IMG/VR virus record: IMGVR_UViG_3300032006_000057
Coordinates: 1 to 29,631 of that record
Direction: 5' to 3' (one strand)
DNA from: a virus
Length of the DNA stretch: 29,631 bases
Made by a program: the position numbers and the translations under genes. The notes under the pieces are model-generated. The model had not been told where the DNA came from. It made no database searches and saw only the letters and a program-made list of their open reading frames with translations. Below are positions 257 to 14,109 of the stretch, one piece after another (within the stretch, counting starts at the first letter, position 1; each line of letters starts with the position of its first letter).

Positions 257-691
257 TTATTTTATTTTGATTGTTTTACTCTTCTTTTCTTCAGGAAGAT
301 TAAGTTTCATCTTAACTAAAAGGATACCGTCTTTAAATTCTGCATCCTTTACTTCAAGATGTTCTGCAAGAGTCCATCGTCTAGTGAAAGCTCTCTTGGC
401 TATTCCTTTATGAAGGAAACTTTCTTCCTCATCTTTAGTCTCCTTAGAAGCTGAGACAGTTAAGACATCTTCTTTAACTTCAACATCGATATCATCTTTA
501 GTGAATCCTGCTAAAGCCATTTCCAATTCATAACCATCAGTACCAATCTTACGAATGTTGTAAGGTGGGTAGCTTGGTGCTTCAAAGTTTGACATTGAAG
601 ACAGTTGGTCAAAGATAGAATCAAAGCCGACTGTTAAGTTTTTAAATGGGTCTGCATTAAATACCAGACCTCTTGTTGTAGGTATATTCAT
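257..691 (-). CDS. hsp20: small heat shock protein (Hsp20, IbpA-like)
   Basis: This 144-residue protein has the full layout of an IbpA-type small heat shock chaperone. It has a short N-terminal arm, an alpha-crystallin domain from about residue 41 (YPPYNI) to 134, the conserved region 94-122 (LHKGIAKRAFTRRW and the following LAEHLEV), a DGIL turn, and a C-terminal IKI motif used for oligomer contacts. Such proteins bind unfolding proteins without using ATP and hold them for refolding. Hsp20 genes are known in cyanophages and some other marine phages, where they may help virion assembly or protect host proteins late in infection. The start is supported by an AAAGGAG site six bases before the ATG. 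It sits at the end of the structural block, followed by a structured RNA spacer. Confidence 0.93.
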   Translation of the reverse strand: MNIPTTRGLVFNADPFKNLTVGFDSIFDQLSSMSNFEAPSYPPYNIRKIGTDGYELEMALAGFTKDDIDVEVKEDVLTVSASKETKDEEESFLHKGIAKRAFTRRWTLAEHLEVKDAEFKDGILLVKMKLNLPEEKKSKTIKIK

Positions 692-751: not shown

Positions 752-1546
752 TTAAGCCTTCTTAAATTTTTTTGTGTCTAGTAGACCACCTCTTTTAAAA
801 CTTACACTAAATCCTGCACTAACTGAGCTAAGACCTGGAGTAACTCCAACAGTAAATCCTTTTTCTGCATCTGTGAATCCCAATCCTAGGTCATTTATTC
901 CCCAACCATCATCAGTTTTACTAAATAAACTTTTATCTTCAGGAGGACTATATGTAGGACTATATGTACTTAGGTCATTAAAGGTATTTTGATTATTATT
1001 ATTATTGTTGTTGTTGTTATTGTTATTGTTATTGTTGTTATTGTTGTTACTGTTATTATTATTATTGCTGTGTGGGTTTCCTCGAGAACTATACCCACCA
1101 TCATTGTTTCCACCGTTTTGACCTCCCATTCCAGAAGTATCTCCACCCATTCCATGATGTCCACCACCACCGTAATCAGGGAAAGCTGGTATTCCAGACT
1201 TAGTTTTTTCTCCACTACCTCCCATAGCTTTTAAAAGCTGTGCTTCTTCTGGTGTAATGTAAGCTAACATATGACCTTTTGGCGCTTCTTTATTTAATAT
1301 CTTTGCCATCTTAACTAATTCTTTATTCTTTTTAGTATCAATATTACCACCTTTTGAAACAGCTATTGAACCAAAGTACTCAACTAAATCAAAGACACTG
1401 GGTTTTCTTTTACCCTTACCTTGTGTAGAATATTGACCTAGAGTGTAAGCTCCTTCATTGGTTATCCCATAAGATTTCTTACCTGCTCTAAAGTATTCAT
1501 CCATCCCTTTTCTTGTAGCATAATCTGATAATTTTGGTTTAACCAT
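752..1546 (-). CDS. poly-asparagine, glycine-rich structural-type protein
   Basis: This is a 264-residue protein of unknown function. I chose the ATG at 1546 (MVKPKLSDYATRK) because AAAGGA lies nine bases upstream. An earlier in-frame ATG at 1597 would overlap the previous gene by 25 bases and has no good binding site. The N-terminal half is basic and compact. The middle is a Gly/Met/His-rich linker followed by 5 and then 19 asparagines. The C-terminal 60 residues alternate hydrophobic and polar residues (GFTVGVTPGLSSVSAGFSVSF), suggesting beta strands, and end with a basic RGGL tail. The layout suggests a virion protein with a flexible spacer joining two folded ends. The poly-Asn length may vary because it is coded by a trinucleotide repeat. 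Confidence 0.75.
   Translation of the reverse strand: MVKPKLSDYATRKGMDEYFRAGKKSYGITNEGAYTLGQYSTQGKGKRKPSVFDLVEYFGSIAVSKGGNIDTKKNKELVKMAKILNKEAPKGHMLAYITPEEAQLLKAMGGSGEKTKSGIPAFPDYGGGGHHGMGGDTSGMGGQNGGNNDGGYSSRGNPHSNNNNNSNNNNNNNNNNNNNNNNNNNQNTFNDLSTYSPTYSPPEDKSLFSKTDDGWGINDLGLGFTDAEKGFTVGVTPGLSSVSAGFSVSFKRGGLLDTKKFKKA
944..967 (-). repeat. 12-bp perfect tandem duplication
   Basis: The plus-strand sequence ggactatatgta occurs twice head to tail. In the poly-Asn protein it codes for the repeated YSPTYSP stretch just after the asparagine tract. It looks like a recent slippage duplication in a region already unstable because of the adjacent microsatellite. Confidence 0.85.
992..1066 (-). repeat. 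AAT/AAC trinucleotide tract coding poly-Asn
   Basis: On the plus strand this is an unbroken run of att/gtt triplets interrupted once by act. It gives 19 asparagines, one serine and 5 asparagines. The mixed AAT and AAC codons mean it is not a pure microsatellite, so the tract may be partly kept by selection for the amino acid. In-frame gain or loss of triplets would change linker length without breaking the protein. Confidence 0.9.
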
Positions 1547-1572
1547 ATTATTTATTCCTTTGTTGTAATCTT

Positions 1573-4500
1573 TTAATTTTTTGGAAACATATCCCACACT
1601 TTAAGTGAAAGAGGTTTGGAATCTTCTACAGATGTTCTACTTGTAAATGTCAAACCAGTATGAGGATATAATGTTCTTGTTAATAATGCTCTCCATGATG
1701 GAAAAGGTGCTAAATCCCATGCATTCTTATAAGCATCCTCCCAACTTTTATTTCCTGTAACTGCTTGTAATGTATTTACAATTCCAAGAGATACATCTTC
1801 AAGAGGTTGTAAACCTGGAGCAATACTCATAGGTCTAGCTGAACCATAACCAATAGTTTGATTTACAATAGTTGTTGGTAACCATCCCATAGTACCACTA
1901 AGTTGTAGAGCTTCCGCCGACCATTTAGGCCAGTTTACATTTGGATGTCCCAACATAGGACTATTATTTCTGGTATGTCCAAAAGAAACTAAGTCTCTTA
2001 AATCTTTTATTCCTCCATATAAAACTAAAGATAAAGCCATTAATGTTGCTTGTTTTGTAACATCATGTAGAGGACCGCTTTCTATACGAGCTATCATTGC
2101 ATCAGTTTGTGCAGTTTTTGCCATCGCCCAAGAACTAAACTGACCGAATAATCTCATTACAGGATTTCTAGATTGAGAAAATAATAATCTATTTCCTACT
2201 TCTGGAATAATTGCATCTCTATTCATAGCATAGCTTCCAGCTTTCATTAAAAACTTTTTACCAGCATCAGAGCTTAACATTTGTTCTGGTGTTGTAAACT
2301 GAGACAACATCATTAATTCATTTGTGTTAATAATTTTACCGTCTTTTACTTTGATAACTCCACTATCTATTAAATGTTTTATTGATGTAGGGTTTTGTCT
2401 AAATAAATCATCTATTGAACTATACTTACCTTTATTAATAACTTTGGCTACAGCTAATAAAGATTTATGAGCATCTATAGCACCAGCATTAAATGCAAAT
2501 CTTCTAGCAAAGTCAGTAATATATTCTAGACCTACTACTTTGAAGAAACCTTTATTTAAAGCTTGAGCATTTTTTCCTGTTCCAGCTCTTTCTATTAAAG
2601 ATGTAGGAGTAAAAGCTATGTCTGGTCCTCCGTGAATAAAAGTTTTTCTAATTGATTCTTGTCCTACTTTATATGTTATCTGGTCTAATAACTGAGCAGC
2701 ACCTTTTTCTTGTCCAGAAAGTAAAGATGTTCCTAATCCTCTAAAACCTCTGAAGTACTGGCCGAAACCTGGCATTGCTTTAAAGGCGGATAAATAGTGT
2801 CTGCTATTAACAAAGGGTTGTACTAAATCTCCAAGGTTTGCTATAGTAACTTTATCCATCATACTAAAGTTAGATAAAGTAGATAGTATACCTGCACCAC
2901 CTCTTGCCCAACCAGGAATATTTGCATGACCATACTTACCAAAGAAACCATTAATAGTATCAGCTAGATAACTTACTTCACCTTTGTGGAGTGGTCCATA
3001 GTATCCAGTAGCACCACCTTGTCCCTTAGTAAATTTTTGTTTTATATATTGCTGTTCTAATTTATTTAAAAAAGGAATTAAAAATTGTCCTTCACTGCCA
3101 AATTTTCTAGCAAACTCTACAGACCTAACACTTCTTTGAACAACATCTGTAAGGACTGTCTCAACATCATCTACTATCCAACCACCATCCATTAGAAGTT
3201 TTTCAACTTTTTTATATTCTCCTTGTAATTTTCTATCAAATTTAATATGTTCTGATAAAGGTAAGAATAATTTTCCTTTTGTTTTTGAACCTATTTGAAA
3301 AGAATCTGGGCCAACAATATCTTTTACTCGTCCCTCATTAACACTTGCTAAAAACTTATCCGCTTCCTCTTCTGCAAACTTAGGATTTTTCTTAGTTTTG
3401 TTTGGATATTTATTTTTAAATATTTGTACTATTGTTTTTCTAAAAGCTAGTAAGCTTTCTTCATTAGCATTTATTTTTTCATAATTATATTTTCTATAAA
3501 AGAAATTATCATATACATTTTTTTCTTTAATACCTACATCATTGTAGTATTTCTTAAATCTATCTTTAAAGTTTATAATTCTACCTGCTAATGCTGTAGC
3601 CTCTTTACTTGCTTTAATAGTTCTATCACCTCTGACTATTCTCAAAGCTTCACTTTGTAAAGCTAAATTACCACGAGCATTTCCTAATACTTCTCTTATT
3701 CCTCCTAACCAAAAAGTTGTTGCTTCACGAGTCATATCTTCTACATTATTTGCAATACCTAAAGTAGGTTGTTGTTCGTCAGGTAGAAGTTTCCCCCACT
3801 TATCTCTTAGAGGAGTTTTCATAAACTTAGGAAATAATAATGTAGATATTTCATCCATTATTTTTCCGTGAGAAGATAATTTTGTAGCTGTTGTAGTAGA
3901 TAAGTTTATATTTAAATATCTTAATTGATTACTTAGAAAATTATTTGCAATACCTTCACCAATTTTTTGTGCTTTATTTTGAGCTATGCCTGTTACTGCT
4001 CCACTTCTTAATGCTCTTGAAAGAAGTCCAAGACCAGCACCAGCAGTTGCCCACATTAATACTCCTTTATCATCTTTTTGCCATATAGTTCCTGCAGCAC
4101 CTCCAAATAAAAAACCTACTACAGGTCTAGTTACATTATAAGCAAATGCCCTAGCAACTTGATTAGTTAAGCCACCTTTACTTTCTAATTCTCTAAGAAC
4201 AGTCAAATAATAATCAGTCTGAGAACGAGCACTTTTATCTTGTGCTTTTAAAACAGTATCATCCCAATTTTTTAAAAACTTTTTTTGAGCTGCTTTAATT
4301 TTTGAAAGATTTCCTTTTGCTTTATTTATAGCTATAAGATTCTGTTTAGTTAAAGCTGAAGTAAGAGTACCAGGTATTTTTGTTATTTTTTTTGTTTTTA
4401 ATTTTGTTAGTTTTTTAGTAAGAGTTTCAACTGTATTTGATAAATTTTCTTTTTGTGATAAAATTTTAAATAAAGCAGTGTCCGTAGCTTCAACATTTTT

Positions 4501-8573: not shown

Positions 8574-8963
8574 TTAATTTAACAATGGGTTAGATTGTTC
8601 TGCTTTTAATTCTTCTATCTTAGCATCTAGATATTCTATAGCTGCACCATTGATTGCAATATCTTTACTGATAATGTCTACTTTATCTTGTAGTTCATTA
8701 TTATCAGCAGATTGCATATCTAATAGTTCTATAAAGTTTCCATTCATCTCTGATTGTAACTCCTGAACTTTAATGTTTAGTTTTTCATTTAATTCTTTTA
8801 TATCGTCAGTGATTCCTGATAAATCAGTTGTCTCATAAGATACTCCCTCGAGTGCACTAAGTCGTGTGTTGAATTCACCCCAGGCATAAAAACCTCCGCC
8901 GATGGCTCCTACTACACCAACAAGTGCTGCATAGCTTGATAATTTATTAATTAAGTCTGGCAT
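8574..8963 (-). CDS. membrane-anchored coiled-coil protein (129 aa)
   Basis: The N terminus carries one Gly/Ala-rich transmembrane helix at about residues 10-28 (ALVGVVGAIGGGFYAWGEF). A long heptad-like helix follows from 30 to 125, rich in Leu, Ile, Glu and Asp. There is no cleavable signal peptide. One helix plus a coiled coil is seen in phage spanin-like, holin-like and envelope proteins. This protein has no lipobox, and the family is not recognised. AAAGGAG lies seven bases upstream. Its start overlaps the end of the acidic exported protein gene by 17 bases, so translation is probably coupled. The next feature downstream is a promoter, so this may be the last gene of its transcription unit. 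Confidence 0.75.
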   Translation of the reverse strand: MPDLINKLSSYAALVGVVGAIGGGFYAWGEFNTRLSALEGVSYETTDLSGITDDIKELNEKLNIKVQELQSEMNGNFIELLDMQSADNNELQDKVDIISKDIAINGAAIEYLDAKIEELKAEQSNPLLN

Positions 8964-10875
8964 CCATTAACTCCTTTAATTTAAAATAAGCTTTATTAGT
9001 ATTATCTTTTGCATCTTTTACTTTTAATTGATATTGAACTATTGGGTCAAAACCAATCATTTTATTTATAGATGCAACATTTGTATAAATTTCATTAGAA
9101 TAAGAATCTAAACTAACTTGATTAAAAAACTCAGGATTACCTTGAGGTAGTTGCCGAGTATCAAATAAAGCTTGATTTATATCCATATAACTAGAAATAT
9201 CTGGTTGAGAAGCTACCATTTCTTTAGATACTATTTCATTAACCACATCTAAAGTTATACTAACTCTTTGCATTTCATTAGATATTTTATTTTTAATTAC
9301 TTTTTCTAATGCTGCTACCTTAATATCTAAATCAACTTCCACTCTTTCGTCAGTTTCGGATTTATCTGAGATAAATTCTCCGCTAGAATCTGGTTCTTTA
9401 GTTGAGCTTCCTTCAACAGCTGCGAGTTCAGTTGACTCCTCGTCAAGTGATTCTTCTTGTTCGGTAACATCTGTTGTCTCCTGCGGCTCGTCTGTAACAA
9501 CGCTTTCGCTACTGGATTGCTCTTCAATTTGTTCATCAGATATTTCCTCTATAGGTTCTTCATTAGTCATAGCTATTTCTTCAGTAGGTTCTTCATCTTC
9601 TACTATAACTTCTTCTTTAAACTCTTCAACCATTTCCATTGGTGGTTCTTCTTCAAAGTATTCTTCAAACATTTCCTCAAACATTTCTTCTGCCATTTCC
9701 ATGTCTATTTCTTCCATTGGCATCTCTTCAAACATCTCATCAAACTCTTCTATAAAAGCCTCATCAGTAAACACTTCCATATACATTTCTTCTTCAAAGT
9801 ACATCTCTTCTTCAAAGAACATTTCTTCCATTGGAGGTATTTCAGTTATATTAAATTCTTCAAAGTATTCATCTTCAAAAGTTATTTCTGGTAATTCTTC
9901 AAAGTATTCTACTTCTTCAAAGGCCATATCTTCTGGAAAAAATTCTTCCAGTTCAAACTCTTCGTAATAGTCGTCTTGATAGTAATCGTCTTCAAAAAAA
10001 AATTCATCAAGTGCCAAATAGTTATCTTCTATTTCAAACTCTTCTTCTTCAAAGTAATCATCATTAAATGAATAATCAAAATCTATATCTTCTATTATGC
10101 CTGGCTGTTCATAAAGATATATATCATCTAGATATATGTCATTTTCAAATGTATCTAAAAAAGTTTCAACTTCAGCTATTTCATCTTGACCTACACATGT
10201 TGGTGGTGTCTTTTCCCAACAATACTGAACTGTAGTTACTGTCGTAGAAGAAAGAACATCATATGTTAGTTTTAATTCTGGGTCTTTCACATCGACGCCG
10301 CTATGCCCTCCGTTATAGTTGGCGTTCCCTTGTATATCAAAACTAAACCTAGCAGTTAAAGAACCGTGACTATTTTCTGTATTAGGTGCAATAGTTAATG
10401 TATTAGAATAATTATTAAACTGATAGTTATGATTTGTAGTATCTTCAAAAGTAATACTTTGAGTAGTTGTATCAATACCATTAGTTGCTGTCTGTGTCAT
10501 AGTGATAGTAGACTCTTGTGGATTCCACCATCTTATGTCTGCGGATAATTCAGAAGTTAATCCTTGTTGTAATTCTTGTTCTGTTAATATATCCTGAGAT
10601 TGAATAGTTGTTTCTGCATACTTTCCATCTTTTCCTGTAAGATAAACTGACTCATTAATATCAGATGAGTCTGGAAACATAGTGCCTTGCCAACTACCAT
10701 CATTCCATTTCTGAGATATTAAATTATCTGTAGTTACAGGATTACCAGTTGTAACAGTAGTTACTGTAGTAGTATCACCTGGGTTGGGAGTGTCTTCAAT
10801 AGTTACAGTCTGACTATTCGCTGCCGAGATGAACAGCATTACCGTTGCCGTCAACGATATAAGCTTCCTTATCAT
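8947..10875 (-). CDS. exported hyperacidic aromatic-rich protein (642 aa)
   Basis: A Sec signal peptide (MIRKLISLTATVMLFISAANS) precedes a Thr/Ser-rich beta-type domain to about residue 220. It is followed by a short Cys219-x7-Cys227 loop that could form a disulfide. Residues 223-419 contain no Lys, Arg or His and consist mainly of Glu, Asp, Phe, Tyr and Met in loose FEEM, YFEE and EEMF repeats. A Ser/Thr/Glu linker and a helical C-terminal domain (515-642) end the protein. The start has a strong GGAGG six bases upstream. The gene overlaps the previous exported-protein gene by 62 bases. Export to the periplasm or cell surface is strongly suggested, but the function is unknown. The acidic aromatic stretch could bind cations or a basic partner. 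Confidence 0.8.
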   Translation of the reverse strand: MIRKLISLTATVMLFISAANSQTVTIEDTPNPGDTTTVTTVTTGNPVTTDNLISQKWNDGSWQGTMFPDSSDINESVYLTGKDGKYAETTIQSQDILTEQELQQGLTSELSADIRWWNPQESTITMTQTATNGIDTTTQSITFEDTTNHNYQFNNYSNTLTIAPNTENSHGSLTARFSFDIQGNANYNGGHSGVDVKDPELKLTYDVLSSTTVTTVQYCWEKTPPTCVGQDEIAEVETFLDTFENDIYLDDIYLYEQPGIIEDIDFDYSFNDDYFEEEEFEIEDNYLALDEFFFEDDYYQDDYYEEFELEEFFPEDMAFEEVEYFEELPEITFEDEYFEEFNITEIPPMEEMFFEEEMYFEEEMYMEVFTDEAFIEEFDEMFEEMPMEEIDMEMAEEMFEEMFEEYFEEEPPMEMVEEFKEEVIVEDEEPTEEIAMTNEEPIEEISDEQIEEQSSSESVVTDEPQETTDVTEQEESLDEESTELAAVEGSSTKEPDSSGEFISDKSETDERVEVDLDIKVAALEKVIKNKISNEMQRVSITLDVVNEIVSKEMVASQPDISSYMDINQALFDTRQLPQGNPEFFNQVSLDSYSNEIYTNVASINKMIGFDPIVQYQLKVKDAKDNTNKAYFKLKELMDARLN

Positions 10876-11509
10876 CCATTGCCTCCGTAATCTGTGAATC
10901 TACTTCTTCCATATATCTAAGAGCTTTTGTATATTCTTCGTAGTCTGGTCTTTGTTTATCGTATTTGTTCCATTCTTCTAAAGCCTCACTTCCTATGCGG
11001 CCATTAAACGGACAAGGTGTTCCTGCGTGAGCCATAGCTGAAAATACTCTAGCATCTTGACATAAAATACTTACCGCTGCTACCTTCATATTAAAATCAA
11101 AAAGAAGTTTAGATAGCTTCATTCTTTCACAGTTCATATCTCTTTTAGTAATACCAATACTTCCACCTATTAAAGGTTTCTGTATTCCTAAACTAACTCC
11201 AACTGTACAAAGGTCTTGCGACATTGCAGATATTCCTGGAGCAGATGCTGATGGAACTGTACGAGTATCACCAGTATAGGAATTATTATTAGTGGTTGAA
11301 TTAGTAGTTGTACTAGAAGACGAACCACTTTGGTAATTAGTTGTACTTTCAGAATTATAACCACCAGTTATAGCAGTATTACTTCCACTTGAATTCACTT
11401 GGTCATTTGTAGTTGCTCCACTAGATGTAACATCATTGTCTGCCATTGCAATACTAAGACTACAAAACATTACAGCTGTAATAACAACTGCCATTAAAAT
11501 ATTTTTCAT
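10814..11509 (-). CDS. exported Ser/Thr/Asn-rich protein with cysteines (231 aa)
   Basis: The first 23 residues form a classical signal peptide ending in AMA-D. A low-complexity Ser/Thr/Asn/Gly region (25-90) follows, then a compact domain with cysteines in LCTVGVSLG, MNCERMKLSKLL, SILCQDARVF and GTPCPFNGRIG. The four cysteines could form disulfides after export. Similar proteins with the NCERMKLS...KVAAVSxLCQD pattern are familiar to me from marine phages, but with no assigned function. AAGGG precedes the ATG. Its 3' end overlaps the acidic exported-protein gene, so both are probably made together and act in the envelope. Confidence 0.8.
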   Translation of the reverse strand: MKNILMAVVITAVMFCSLSIAMADNDVTSSGATTNDQVNSSGSNTAITGGYNSESTTNYQSGSSSSTTTNSTTNNNSYTGDTRTVPSASAPGISAMSQDLCTVGVSLGIQKPLIGGSIGITKRDMNCERMKLSKLLFDFNMKVAAVSILCQDARVFSAMAHAGTPCPFNGRIGSEALEEWNKYDKQRPDYEEYTKALRYMEEVDSQITEAMDDKEAYIVDGNGNAVHLGSE

Positions 11510-11531: not shown

Positions 11532-11771
11532 TTAATTTCCGTTACTTTTCTTTGTTCTAATAAAAATTCTAACTATAAATTTTATAAACTTTTTAATATG
11601 TCCTAATACAAATTCGTTTAAGAACCATCTTACTATACGCATCACAATAAGTATAGGGCTAGATAAAACATCAAACACAACAAGAGATATATCTACTCCT
11701 GTATCTACTATATTATCTAAATTAAAATATTTCTTAATTCCCTGTTGGGTTTTCTGTGAGGATTTTGACAA
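11532..11771 (-). CDS. small basic membrane protein
   Basis: The reading frame has no ATG near its beginning. A TTG at 11771 is preceded by a purine-rich GGAAGGAAG four bases upstream and gives 79 residues. Another TTG at 11798 would overlap the previous gene by 65 bases and lacks such a site. The protein has a hydrophilic start, a hydrophobic stretch at about residues 26-45 (VDISLVVFDVLSSPILIVM) and a second weaker amphipathic one, then a basic tail. It is probably an inner-membrane protein of the envelope block. No family is recognised. Confidence 0.55.
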   Translation of the reverse strand: MSKSSQKTQQGIKKYFNLDNIVDTGVDISLVVFDVLSSPILIVMRIVRWFLNEFVLGHIKKFIKFIVRIFIRTKKSNGN

Positions 11772-11967
11772 TTCTCTTCCTTCCCATATCCATTTCAACT
11801 TCAGCCTCTACTTGTACACACTGCATGAATATTCCCTCTTGTTCTGGGCCGATGTTTTGCATAGCCACACGCTTGGTCTTAAGACAATCAGCCATACCCT
11901 CAGTTGGCACCGTCTCTATTATGGAACCGTTAGTTATAAGTAGTACTGCGAAAAGTGTTTCAATCAT
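11734..11967 (-). CDS. 77-residue exported or membrane-anchored Cys protein
   Basis: The N terminus (MIETLFAVLLITNGSII) is a short hydrophobic segment. The rest is a small domain with Cys28 (MADCLKTKRVAMQN) and Cys50 (GIFMQCVQVEAEVEM), spaced so that one disulfide is possible. I know similar small proteins with the pattern hydrophobic start, xxCLxxKR and xCxxVxAE from marine phage genomes, where the function is unassigned. Its start overlaps the stop of the membrane coiled-coil gene by 8 bases. Topology could be periplasmic and anchored, which fits the neighbouring envelope proteins. Confidence 0.7.
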   Translation of the reverse strand: MIETLFAVLLITNGSIIETVPTEGMADCLKTKRVAMQNIGPEQEGIFMQCVQVEAEVEMDMGRKRIVKILTENPTGN

Positions 11968-12355
11968 GTGATATTCCGTTCTGTCTTATCTTATCAATTA
12001 ACATTTCAACATCTATCATGCGTTCTTCGATGAATTGTAATTGCATATTTAGTTTTGCAATCTCTGGAATCTCTTTATTAACATGAGTACGAAGTTCCTC
12101 CTGCGTTTTACTTAGCCATTCCACTAACATAAAGAGTTCGTTTATCTGTGGACTGACCATGGTGCCTTTAGGCACTCCATCAATAAAGTCGTTTGCTGCT
12201 TCCATGTCTTGTGCCATTAACTGTTGATTTGTTTCCAACTTGTTTAATCTTTCCTGTATCGAGAAGAAGCTCATAGTGCCTATTGCGACTGCTGCTAGGA
12301 TGGCTATTAAGTTTCTGGCAGGGAGAGAAATTTGCGTTGCGTCTGAGATTTTCAT
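11960..12355 (-). CDS. membrane-anchored coiled-coil protein (131 aa)
   Basis: A hydrophobic helix at about residues 14-33 (NLIAILAAVAIGTMSFF) is followed by about 95 residues of helix with heptad-like spacing. It contains the phrase DGVPKGTMVSPQINELF, which may form a turn between two coils. There is no signal cleavage site or lipobox. The layout matches the 129-residue protein at 8574-8963, so the envelope block carries two anchor-plus-coil proteins. It has no evident Shine-Dalgarno sequence. The upstream leader is A-rich. Possible roles are in lysis or envelope bridging, but this is not shown by sequence. Confidence 0.7.
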   Translation of the reverse strand: MKISDATQISLPARNLIAILAAVAIGTMSFFSIQERLNKLETNQQLMAQDMEAANDFIDGVPKGTMVSPQINELFMLVEWLSKTQEELRTHVNKEIPEIAKLNMQLQFIEERMIDVEMLIDKIRQNGISHD

Positions 12356-12365
12356 TTATTTTTAC

Positions 12366-13670
12366 TTAGTTTCCAAGTAAATCCATTCTTTCTTTTGCAC
12401 CCATAAACCAATCTGATTGTGCTTTATTTAAGAACTGTCCTGAAGTTGCTGCATATATATCAGTACCAGCATATCTAGTTCCAAATGGGTCTAAACTAGC
12501 GTCTACTCCCATAGGCACATATGGACTTTCTTCAGGGTCTTGTCCAAGAGTAGATAAATAACTCATAGCAGAATTTTTTCCTCTTTGTAGTAAACTAGGA
12601 GTTTTATCTTGTGTTCCGTAAGTAAAGTTATCTGGCCCTTGGTAACGAAGTTTATTATCTTTTATACCAACATATTCCATTCCGTAATCTTTAAATTGAA
12701 CAGTAGCACTGTCTCCTGTCCAGTGAAAGTTTTTACCACTAGCTCCTTCTCTAAATTGTGTCATACCAAAATCTTTAGATTGACTAAAATCTAATGTATA
12801 TTTATTAGCATCTCCTACAGATACTCCATTTTTCATCATATGTTGATGAGCATCATAAGAATTTAATCCATATTCTTTTGAAAGTGTATTAGCATATGTT
12901 TGAACATCAGGAGTATACATTGATGTTGTACTAGACATAGCTTGATTAATAATTTGTTGTGAAGCCATATTCATTTGATTAGCATTAAAAGCTTGAACAC
13001 CACCAGTTTGAACTACACCACTAGATGTTCCCCAAACACCTGTACTTCTAGTAAACTCTCCAGTACCAACTTGCATTGGAGTTGTCTTCGCTATAGTTGG
13101 AGACCAGTTAGCACCAGTTTCAACAGCTTTAGTTATTAATTTTTCTGTACCCATTCCAGCTCTACCAGAAAGTACATCTCCAGTACCTTTCCAAAGATTA
13201 TTAAATCCTCCAGCTATATCACCTTGACCAAGAGAGCTAAAAGTTTTACCAAGTGTTTGTGTAATACCTTGATATGTTCCTTTTATAAAAGCACCTGATT
13301 TACTAATACCTGTCCAAGCAGAATGTCCTAGTTGTGCTAATGTATTACCAAATGTCATTCCTGCTCCAGGAGCTGCTTTTGCTGCTGCACCTAACCAATT
13401 ACCTAAACCTGCCCACGCTTGACCCATACCAGCCATTAAATATGGCATGGCAAAAGATAAAGCAACCATTCCTATTGGTCCTATCTTATCAGCAAACTTT
13501 GCAAATTTTCTAAAAGTACTCTTACCAAACTTTTTAACTTTAGTCCATAGTTTACCTCCAAGTTTTCTAATATTTTTAGTAGCTTTTTTTACTATTTTAG
13601 TAATAGGCTTACTAATTTTCTTAGCAACTTTTTTAACTGTCTTTTTTATTTTTTTAACTATCGAACCCAT
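12366..13670 (-). CDS. lysine-rich, membrane-active type virion protein (434 aa)
   Basis: The first 62 residues hold 22 lysines and 2 arginines in amphipathic blocks (VKKIKKTVKKVAKKI, later KLWTKVKKFGK) and a single acidic residue. A hydrophobic stretch follows at about 64-84 (GPIGMVALSFAMPYLMAGMG), then a Gly/Ala/Trp-rich region to about 190 with further mild hydrophobic helices. The remaining part is polar and Gln/Ser/Thr-rich without a recognised domain. This organisation fits a DNA- or membrane-binding internal virion protein. The gene starts within the last 17 bases of the HlyC-like acyltransferase gene, with a GGAG site inside that gene, so both are translationally coupled. That makes its lysines plausible acylation targets, which is an inference. 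Confidence 0.78.
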   Translation of the reverse strand: MGSIVKKIKKTVKKVAKKISKPITKIVKKATKNIRKLGGKLWTKVKKFGKSTFRKFAKFADKIGPIGMVALSFAMPYLMAGMGQAWAGLGNWLGAAAKAAPGAGMTFGNTLAQLGHSAWTGISKSGAFIKGTYQGITQTLGKTFSSLGQGDIAGGFNNLWKGTGDVLSGRAGMGTEKLITKAVETGANWSPTIAKTTPMQVGTGEFTRSTGVWGTSSGVVQTGGVQAFNANQMNMASQQIINQAMSSTTSMYTPDVQTYANTLSKEYGLNSYDAHQHMMKNGVSVGDANKYTLDFSQSKDFGMTQFREGASGKNFHWTGDSATVQFKDYGMEYVGIKDNKLRYQGPDNFTYGTQDKTPSLLQRGKNSAMSYLSTLGQDPEESPYVPMGVDASLDPFGTRYAGTDIYAATSGQFLNKAQSDWFMGAKERMDLLGN

Positions 13671-14109
13671 TTTCTTTTTCTCCTTTTGTAAATGCGTATC
13701 CTTGTTTTTTAACTTTAACTCCGCCGAACTTATCGTAACCTAATCGTATCCAATTTATTTTCTTTTTATCACCAACTTGTTCAGCTAAATTTCTTTGTGT
13801 CCATCTATGTAATGTTAATAAATTTCCATCATTACAGATAGTATCCATATGCCATATATTCTCACCATTATTCCACCAACTTTCATCTTCTATTAAACCT
13901 GTTCTTCTAAATTTTTCAGAAGAGTTATTATTCATAAAAGCCCAGCTAGTATAAGCAAAAGGCCTATCTCCTCTTCTAAAGACTCTATACTGATTAAGTT
14001 TTATTGGTGGTAAAACTTGTTGTAGAATATGTTCAACATCCCCTTTAAATATATTTTTATAAACTTTAGCAGTACTTACTAAATGTACTGCAGCTTCTAC
14101 ATCATTCAT
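13654..14109 (-). CDS. HlyC-like toxin-activating lysine-acyltransferase homologue
   Basis: This 151-residue protein matches the RTX toxin-activating acyltransferase family (HlyC, RtxC) in length and in its main landmarks. VLPPIKLNQYRVF (32-44) corresponds to VLPAIQANQY in HlyC, RPFAYTSWAF (49-58) to YPVAYCSWAN, and WWNNGENIWHMD (78-89) to the WxxGxxxWxID region that ends in the catalytic Asp (here Asp89). HlyC enzymes move a fatty acyl chain from acyl carrier protein to a lysine of a protoxin. The catalytic His of HlyC (His23, in LHRNW) aligns best with Tyr17 (VYKN), so activity may be altered or His26 may replace it. No RTX toxin is coded here. The next gene overlaps it and has a lysine-rich start. 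There is no Shine-Dalgarno sequence before its ATG, only an A-rich stretch. Confidence 0.8.
   Translation of the reverse strand: MNDVEAAVHLVSTAKVYKNIFKGDVEHILQQVLPPIKLNQYRVFRRGDRPFAYTSWAFMNNNSSEKFRRTGLIEDESWWNNGENIWHMDTICNDGNLLTLHRWTQRNLAEQVGDKKKINWIRLGYDKFGGVKVKKQGYAFTKGEKENGFDS

Follow-up and report, generated by a model that had tools for sequence, protein, structure and literature searches.

A conserved three-gene envelope module in marine phages with an acidic, basic-residue-free exported chain and a candidate role in outer-membrane lysis

We analyzed a 29,631-base IMG/VR virus record (the window), in which gene B encodes a predicted exported protein with a long acidic stretch devoid of Lys, Arg and His. 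Judged from gene order and sequence comparison, gene B appears to belong to a fixed and truly conserved three-gene envelope module, A-B-C. As the most likely role of this module we tentatively propose, from positional evidence, that it stands in for the spanin system and contributes to opening the outer membrane during lysis. The outer-membrane step is unexplained in many phages, and A-B-C is a testable candidate for it. The module and the parts of gene B are located in the window as follows.

10814..11509, minus strand: gene A, 231-aa predicted exported protein, phrog_20531, overlapping gene B by 62 nt
8947..10875, minus strand: gene B, 642-aa predicted exported protein with ATG start and homologues
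10813..10875, minus strand: B residues 1–21, Sec signal peptide predicted from the sequence by eye
10255..10758, minus strand: B residues 40–207, predicted β jelly-roll of carbohydrate-binding-module type (AlphaFold2, structure matches)
9619..10209, minus strand: B residues 223–419, without K/R/H, predicted disordered (composition, pLDDT, purifying selection)
9331..9618, minus strand: B residues 420–515, second acidic stretch, weakly constrained
8950..9330, minus strand: B residues 516–642, predicted helical C-terminal domain common to distant cassette members (alignment, AlphaFold2, HMM)
8574..8963, minus strand: gene C, 129 aa, N-terminal hydrophobic stretch, predicted coiled coil, ending NPLLN, overlapping gene B by 17 nt

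The product of gene B is predicted to consist of a signal peptide, a jelly-roll domain, an acidic disordered region and a C-terminal helical domain, in this order. Judged by eye, its N-terminus, MIRKLISLTATVMLFISAANS followed by Q, looks like a Sec signal peptide, and a hydrophobic core was present within the first 25 residues in 37 of 39 homologous sequences; export, proposed in an earlier sequence-only reading, is likely. The same reading had described about 197 residues without basic side chains and with repeated FEEM and YFEE phrases. These phrases are present, and counting in the translation gave residues 223–419 (197 aa) as the exact longest K/R/H-free run, composed of 31% E, 14% F, 11% D, 7.6% Y and 7.6% M, i.e., 42% D/E and 22% F/Y. 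Other proteins of the window contain 5–20% K+R+H, with longest basic-free runs of 14–114 residues. The chance of a given 197-residue stretch being basic-free is about 1e-11 at 12% basic residues and about 4e-5 at the 5% found in B itself. Chance would thus not be expected to produce such a run in a protein encoded in this window.

Tandem repeats in the DNA of gene B were short and imperfect (12–33 bases, about two copies), with nothing more extensive. Two opposite-strand open reading frames, 9457–9894 and 9701–9967, look as if they merely mirror, at low complexity, the coding sequence of the acidic region. Two functions suggested earlier for the acidic region fared less well: nucleic-acid mimicry is hard to square with a signal peptide, and a condensate with basic partners encoded alongside finds no such partner in the cassette, where the net charges of A, B and C are all negative (−9, −134 and −14, respectively). 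We also considered an amphipathic membrane-disrupting helix in B and rejected it, as the hydrophobic moment was not above that of shuffled sequences (57% of shuffles reached the maximum).

AlphaFold2 modeling of B with 22 sequences gave a β-sandwich at about residues 35–217, with pLDDT values mostly of 70–89 and some weaker stretches included. Most of residues 243–515 was predicted to be disordered, with pLDDT mostly of 30–55 in residues 223–419, and the C-terminal helices 515–555 and 611–641 were weakly supported (pLDDT about 40–74). Structure matches to the jelly roll were the Fbs1 sugar-binding domain (Z 12.6), the phage K2-2 tailspike (Z 11.0) and CBM16 (Z 10.4); CBM4 shares this fold as well. 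The N-terminal domain of B is thus predicted to have a carbohydrate-binding-type jelly-roll fold, where the fold alone is no proof of sugar binding. It differs from CBM- and lectin-like jelly rolls in its sequence identity of only 4–14% and in being joined to an acidic tail and a helical domain. B of the window matched no PHROG, Pfam or NCBIfam family, so that no CBM family membership is assigned by sequence; its relative BAQ94057 reached CBM_4_9 at 16.8 bits, below the cut-off of 25.9. Solved structures were found by sequence for neither B nor A. The N-terminal domain occurs in two sequence types, the C-terminal domain is common to both, and an HMM found the latter in HTVC202P, Baldr and MedDCM-S28-C10.

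Relatives were collected by scanning viral contigs twice, which yielded overlapping sets of 38 and 80 loci. Most loci were gathered with B as the query and their counts take in near-duplicate contigs; they contain 61 distinct complete B sequences. A cellular origin of B was considered and rejected, as a scan of 84,980 species genomes with two short peptide patterns gave no confirmed relative. In nearly all complete sequences of the first set the basic-free run started at residue 222–225, with a length of 117–264 residues, and the whole acidic part had 39–45% D/E, its net charge ranging from −78 to −128. Over the 61 sequences the region averaged 38.5% D/E and 2.2% K/R/H across 242 residues. In the most distant cassette members HTVC023P, HTVC202P, HTVC033P and Mosig it retained 31–39% D+E and carried about 9–12% K+R+H; acidity is therefore the most widely conserved trait, with the strict lack of basic residues confined to the closer family. 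In the comparison of homologues suggested by the sequence-only reading, the acidic composition persists, the length varies (123–304 aa) and the strict basic-free rule holds in close relatives only.

Absence of the region or free drift of its composition, which the earlier reading had named as speaking against it, was looked for among the IMG/VR relatives and not found. Pairwise dN/dS values (Nei-Gojobori, 16 pairs) were 0.10–0.28 in residues 223–419, compared with mostly 0.02–0.15 in the N-terminal domain, 0.07–0.52 in the C-terminal domain and 0.24–1.0 in residues 420–515. Glu to Lys is a single transition. Nevertheless, Lys occurred in only 4 of the 89 Glu columns of residues 223–419, compared with 19 of 49 in residues 420–515, i.e., at 13-fold lower odds (Fisher P 5e-7, a test that counts alignment columns, which are not fully independent, the sequences being related). 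The same 89 columns varied between GAA and GAG in 55 cases and showed Asp in 55. Moreover, residues 223–419 contain sequence-conserved positions, e.g., a DEFFFE..YY.DDYYE block, and cysteines are conserved at residues 219 and 227. By the low dN/dS and the near absence of Lys at Glu columns, residues 223–419 are under purifying selection and under selection against lysine. Free drift was accordingly rejected for this part and not for residues 420–515. An unselected low-complexity linker grown by repeat slippage would agree with the variable length and with the short imperfect tandem repeats; given the dN/dS values, the conserved columns and the depletion of Lys, we regard this explanation as very improbable overall, refuted for residues 223–419 and still reasonable for residues 420–515. 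Such strong selection against Lys, acting on a phage chain that is predicted to be disordered and exported, is a clear case in which charge composition itself is conserved.

Gene A was located upstream of B in all 97 testable loci and gene C downstream of B in all 80. The three genes share one orientation and in most cases overlap, typically by 53–86 nt between A and B and by 17–20 nt between B and C. The A protein has a Ser/Thr/Asn-rich N-terminal part and four invariant cysteines, and AlphaFold2 modeled it with a mean pLDDT of 43 only. Conserved cysteines in A and at B residues 219 and 227 would fit with an oxidizing compartment. In C, the C-terminal Asn-Pro is invariant in 22 aligned homologues. 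Gene A matches phrog_20531 and gene C weakly matches phrog_1009, both families of unknown function. No description of the cassette was found in the open-access literature.

Pelagibacter is an abundant ocean bacterium. Isolates with all three genes are the Pelagibacter phages HTVC023P, Mosig EXVC030M (Kyanoviridae), HTVC202P, which has a tape-measure gene, HTVC033P and Baldr; the uncultured Autographivirus MedDCM-S28-C10 carries them as well. These phages are of unrelated types, i.e., T7-like, siphophage-like and myophage, and such a spread suggests that A-B-C moves as a unit between unrelated phages. In HTVC115P, A is followed by an acidic exported-type middle gene, with a C-like gene further down, and in the Roseobacter phages CRP-207 and CRP-810 A and C surround an unrelated middle gene. 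HTVC027P, of the same type as HTVC023P, gave no match in the cassette searches, so that the module seems not to be universal even among close phages.

In many loci we found a common order of endolysin, a 3TM-holin-like gene, the small protein c6, sometimes c4 and c5, and then A, B and C. We examined the 64 loci in which the contig extends 2.5 kb or more beyond A on its upstream side, a set that includes near-duplicates; the 3TM-holin-like gene was located just upstream of A in 48 and an endolysin nearby in 41; several had no lysis genes nearby. The Pfam cut-off for GTA_holin_3TM was reached only by the holin of Mosig. The endolysins were of three unrelated types, Phage_lysozyme, Amidase_2 or M15. 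In MedDCM-S28-C10 the order tail fibre, holin-like gene, A, B, C and TerL, with further genes after the tail fibre and before TerL, parallels genes 17, 17.5, 18, 18.5/18.7 and 19 of T7, and the trio occupies the T7 spanin position. Across 109 loci, a lipobox scan of the cassette strand, which recovered both T7 18.7 and lambda Rz1 as controls, gave no plausible candidate for an o- or u-spanin; of its three matches, two were A genes almost identical to each other and the third was a remote TM protein. The cassette strands of the complete HTVC202P, Baldr and MedDCM-S28-C10 genomes likewise contained no plausible spanin. In Baldr, a possible lipobox open reading frame of 54 aa, lacking an annotation, lies on the strand that does not carry the cassette (L116:37085–37246, minus strand). 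Very basic small proteins of about 60 and 98 aa without a signal peptide adjoin the cassette in some relatives (L068:5954–6423 and L112:6829–7310), with RRW[NR]C at the C-terminus of the longer protein.

Spanins were not recognizable in 91 of 677 phages (about 13%), for which another route was asked for (PMC6139136), and whether spanin-less phages carry other disruptor types is still open (PMC12819732, 2026). Our proposal that A-B-C takes the place of spanins follows from the position of the trio behind a holin-like gene and endolysin in many relatives and from the lack of a lipobox spanin found beside it. As with the two-component spanins lambda Rz/Rz1 and T7 18.5/18.7, the module of the T7-like relative is placed between the holin and TerL, its genes overlap, and C is a putative membrane protein with a predicted coiled coil and putatively exported partners. 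I-spanins are defined by an N-in/C-out topology in the inner membrane and a periplasmic coiled coil; in C, an N-terminal hydrophobic stretch and a helical-looking tail were observed. Unlike these spanins, A-B-C has three genes and no lipobox protein, and a strongly acidic, exported, lectin-like B of 460–660 aa stands in place of a short lipoprotein. B also does not resemble a unimolecular spanin, which combines a lipoprotein signal with a C-terminal transmembrane domain, as it has no lipobox and its C-terminus is polar and helical. Outer-membrane disruption without spanins, the role proposed here, is also that of the disruptin gp28 of phage phiKT, as cited in PMC12819732. However, this is a short amphipathic peptide of antimicrobial type, whereas B has 642 aa, is strongly acidic and has a helical moment within the range of shuffled sequences. 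The known disruptins are cationic, and the opposite charge of B counts against the lysis reading.

In the proposed mechanism, B would be the central, exported subunit of the three-protein envelope module. C would reside in the inner membrane and its periplasmic coiled coil would pair with the C-terminal helices of B, whose jelly roll may bind an envelope glycan. The acidic chain would act as an extended polyanionic tether, from which positive charge might be excluded because it would make the tether collapse or adhere to the envelope, which is anionic. Disturbance of the outer membrane by the complex would follow after cleavage of the cell wall by the endolysin. Less probable is the broader idea of a third way, beside spanins and disruptins, to remove the outer membrane at lysis, i.e., by an exported three-subunit complex free of lipoproteins. 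Its working part would be the subunit that binds a glycan and bears the selected chain, polyanionic and aromatic, and the genes would have passed together from one phage type to another, unrelated one among the phages that infect marine Alphaproteobacteria. A-B-C is conserved, apparently mobile, predicted to be exported and often encoded next to lysis genes, and its phages infect bacteria that rank among the most abundant in the ocean; it is a concrete candidate that is testable in E. coli.

A weak point of the lysis reading is the position of the trio in the window, with genes for tail or virion proteins on one side and, on the other, genes for two large proteins that may be internal to the virion. 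This location inside a structural gene block would rather suit a host-recognition protein, in which the carbohydrate-binding domain recognizes strain-specific surface glycans and B joins or attaches to the virion. The closeness of the jelly-roll CBM fold to phage tailspike and sugar-binding domains points in the same direction, as does the name of the MedDCM-S28-C10 B gene, ‘putative carbohydrate binding domain containing protein’, a name that, in a study of marine metaviromes, topped the genes identified in variable islands and was linked there to host recognition (PMC3909814). However, virion proteins are assembled in the cytoplasm and do not usually have signal-peptide-like N-termini, as A and B do, or a partner resembling a membrane anchor, as C does, and B comes after the holin in many relatives; we consider host recognition unlikely.

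Lower still we place a superinfection-exclusion or surface-masking module, in which an exported lectin covers the receptor glycans of the infected cell. A lectin fold on an exported protein would fit, as would the accessory distribution and the exchange of the middle gene and of N-terminal domain types, but many relatives carry the trio next to lysis genes, which suggests that it is expressed late, and comparison with the defence systems in PADLOC gave no match. The outer-membrane step might also be carried out by the c4/c5 pair, leaving another envelope role to A-B-C. These genes overlap, c4 has a TM segment and a coiled coil, and in many loci, including the window, the pair either precedes A or follows C. 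Yet c5 has no lipobox, and the pair was not detected in L087, MedDCM-S28-C10, HTVC033P and HTVC202P, all of which have A-B-C, which makes this assignment distinctly improbable. A link to the curli/T8SS transfer described for pelagiphages (PMC9599517) was considered as well, and no connection to the cassette was found.

Against spanin replacement by A-B-C, no holin or endolysin was found by the cassette of the window and of its nearest relatives L001, L009, L050 and L096. The loci with no lysis genes nearby, the missing match in HTVC027P, the unrelated middle gene of the two Roseobacter phages and the opposite-strand lipobox frame of Baldr count against it as well. The spanin-less cyanophages P-SSP7 and Syn5 have no detectable relatives of A, B or C; in P-SSP7 (L120:37739–39238), TM and small secreted-looking genes, one with several cysteines, lie between tail fibre and TerL and show no A/B/C homology. 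The cassette of the window is flanked on one side by large, possibly internal virion proteins and on the other by a Lys-rich protein and an acyltransferase. Two features of this latter side are as follows.

11960..12355, minus strand: c4 (phrog_20984), TM and coiled-coil protein; in many relatives it precedes A or follows C
13654–14109, minus strand: HlyC-family lysine acyltransferase gene (PF02794, E 8e-18)

Together with c5 (phrog_24646, small, cysteine-containing), c4 forms a second overlapping pair at 11740–12355 on the minus strand. The HlyC-type gene directly precedes a gene at 12366–13670 (minus strand) whose product is Lys-rich and cationic in its first approximately 65 residues, an arrangement also present in L050 and L096, and the two are possibly enzyme and substrate. 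Elsewhere in the window, an Hsp20/α-crystallin family protein (257–691, minus strand; PF00011, E 2.5e-18) follows large virion-type genes, and an otherwise ordinary open reading frame at 752–1597 (minus strand) contains a long poly-asparagine run.
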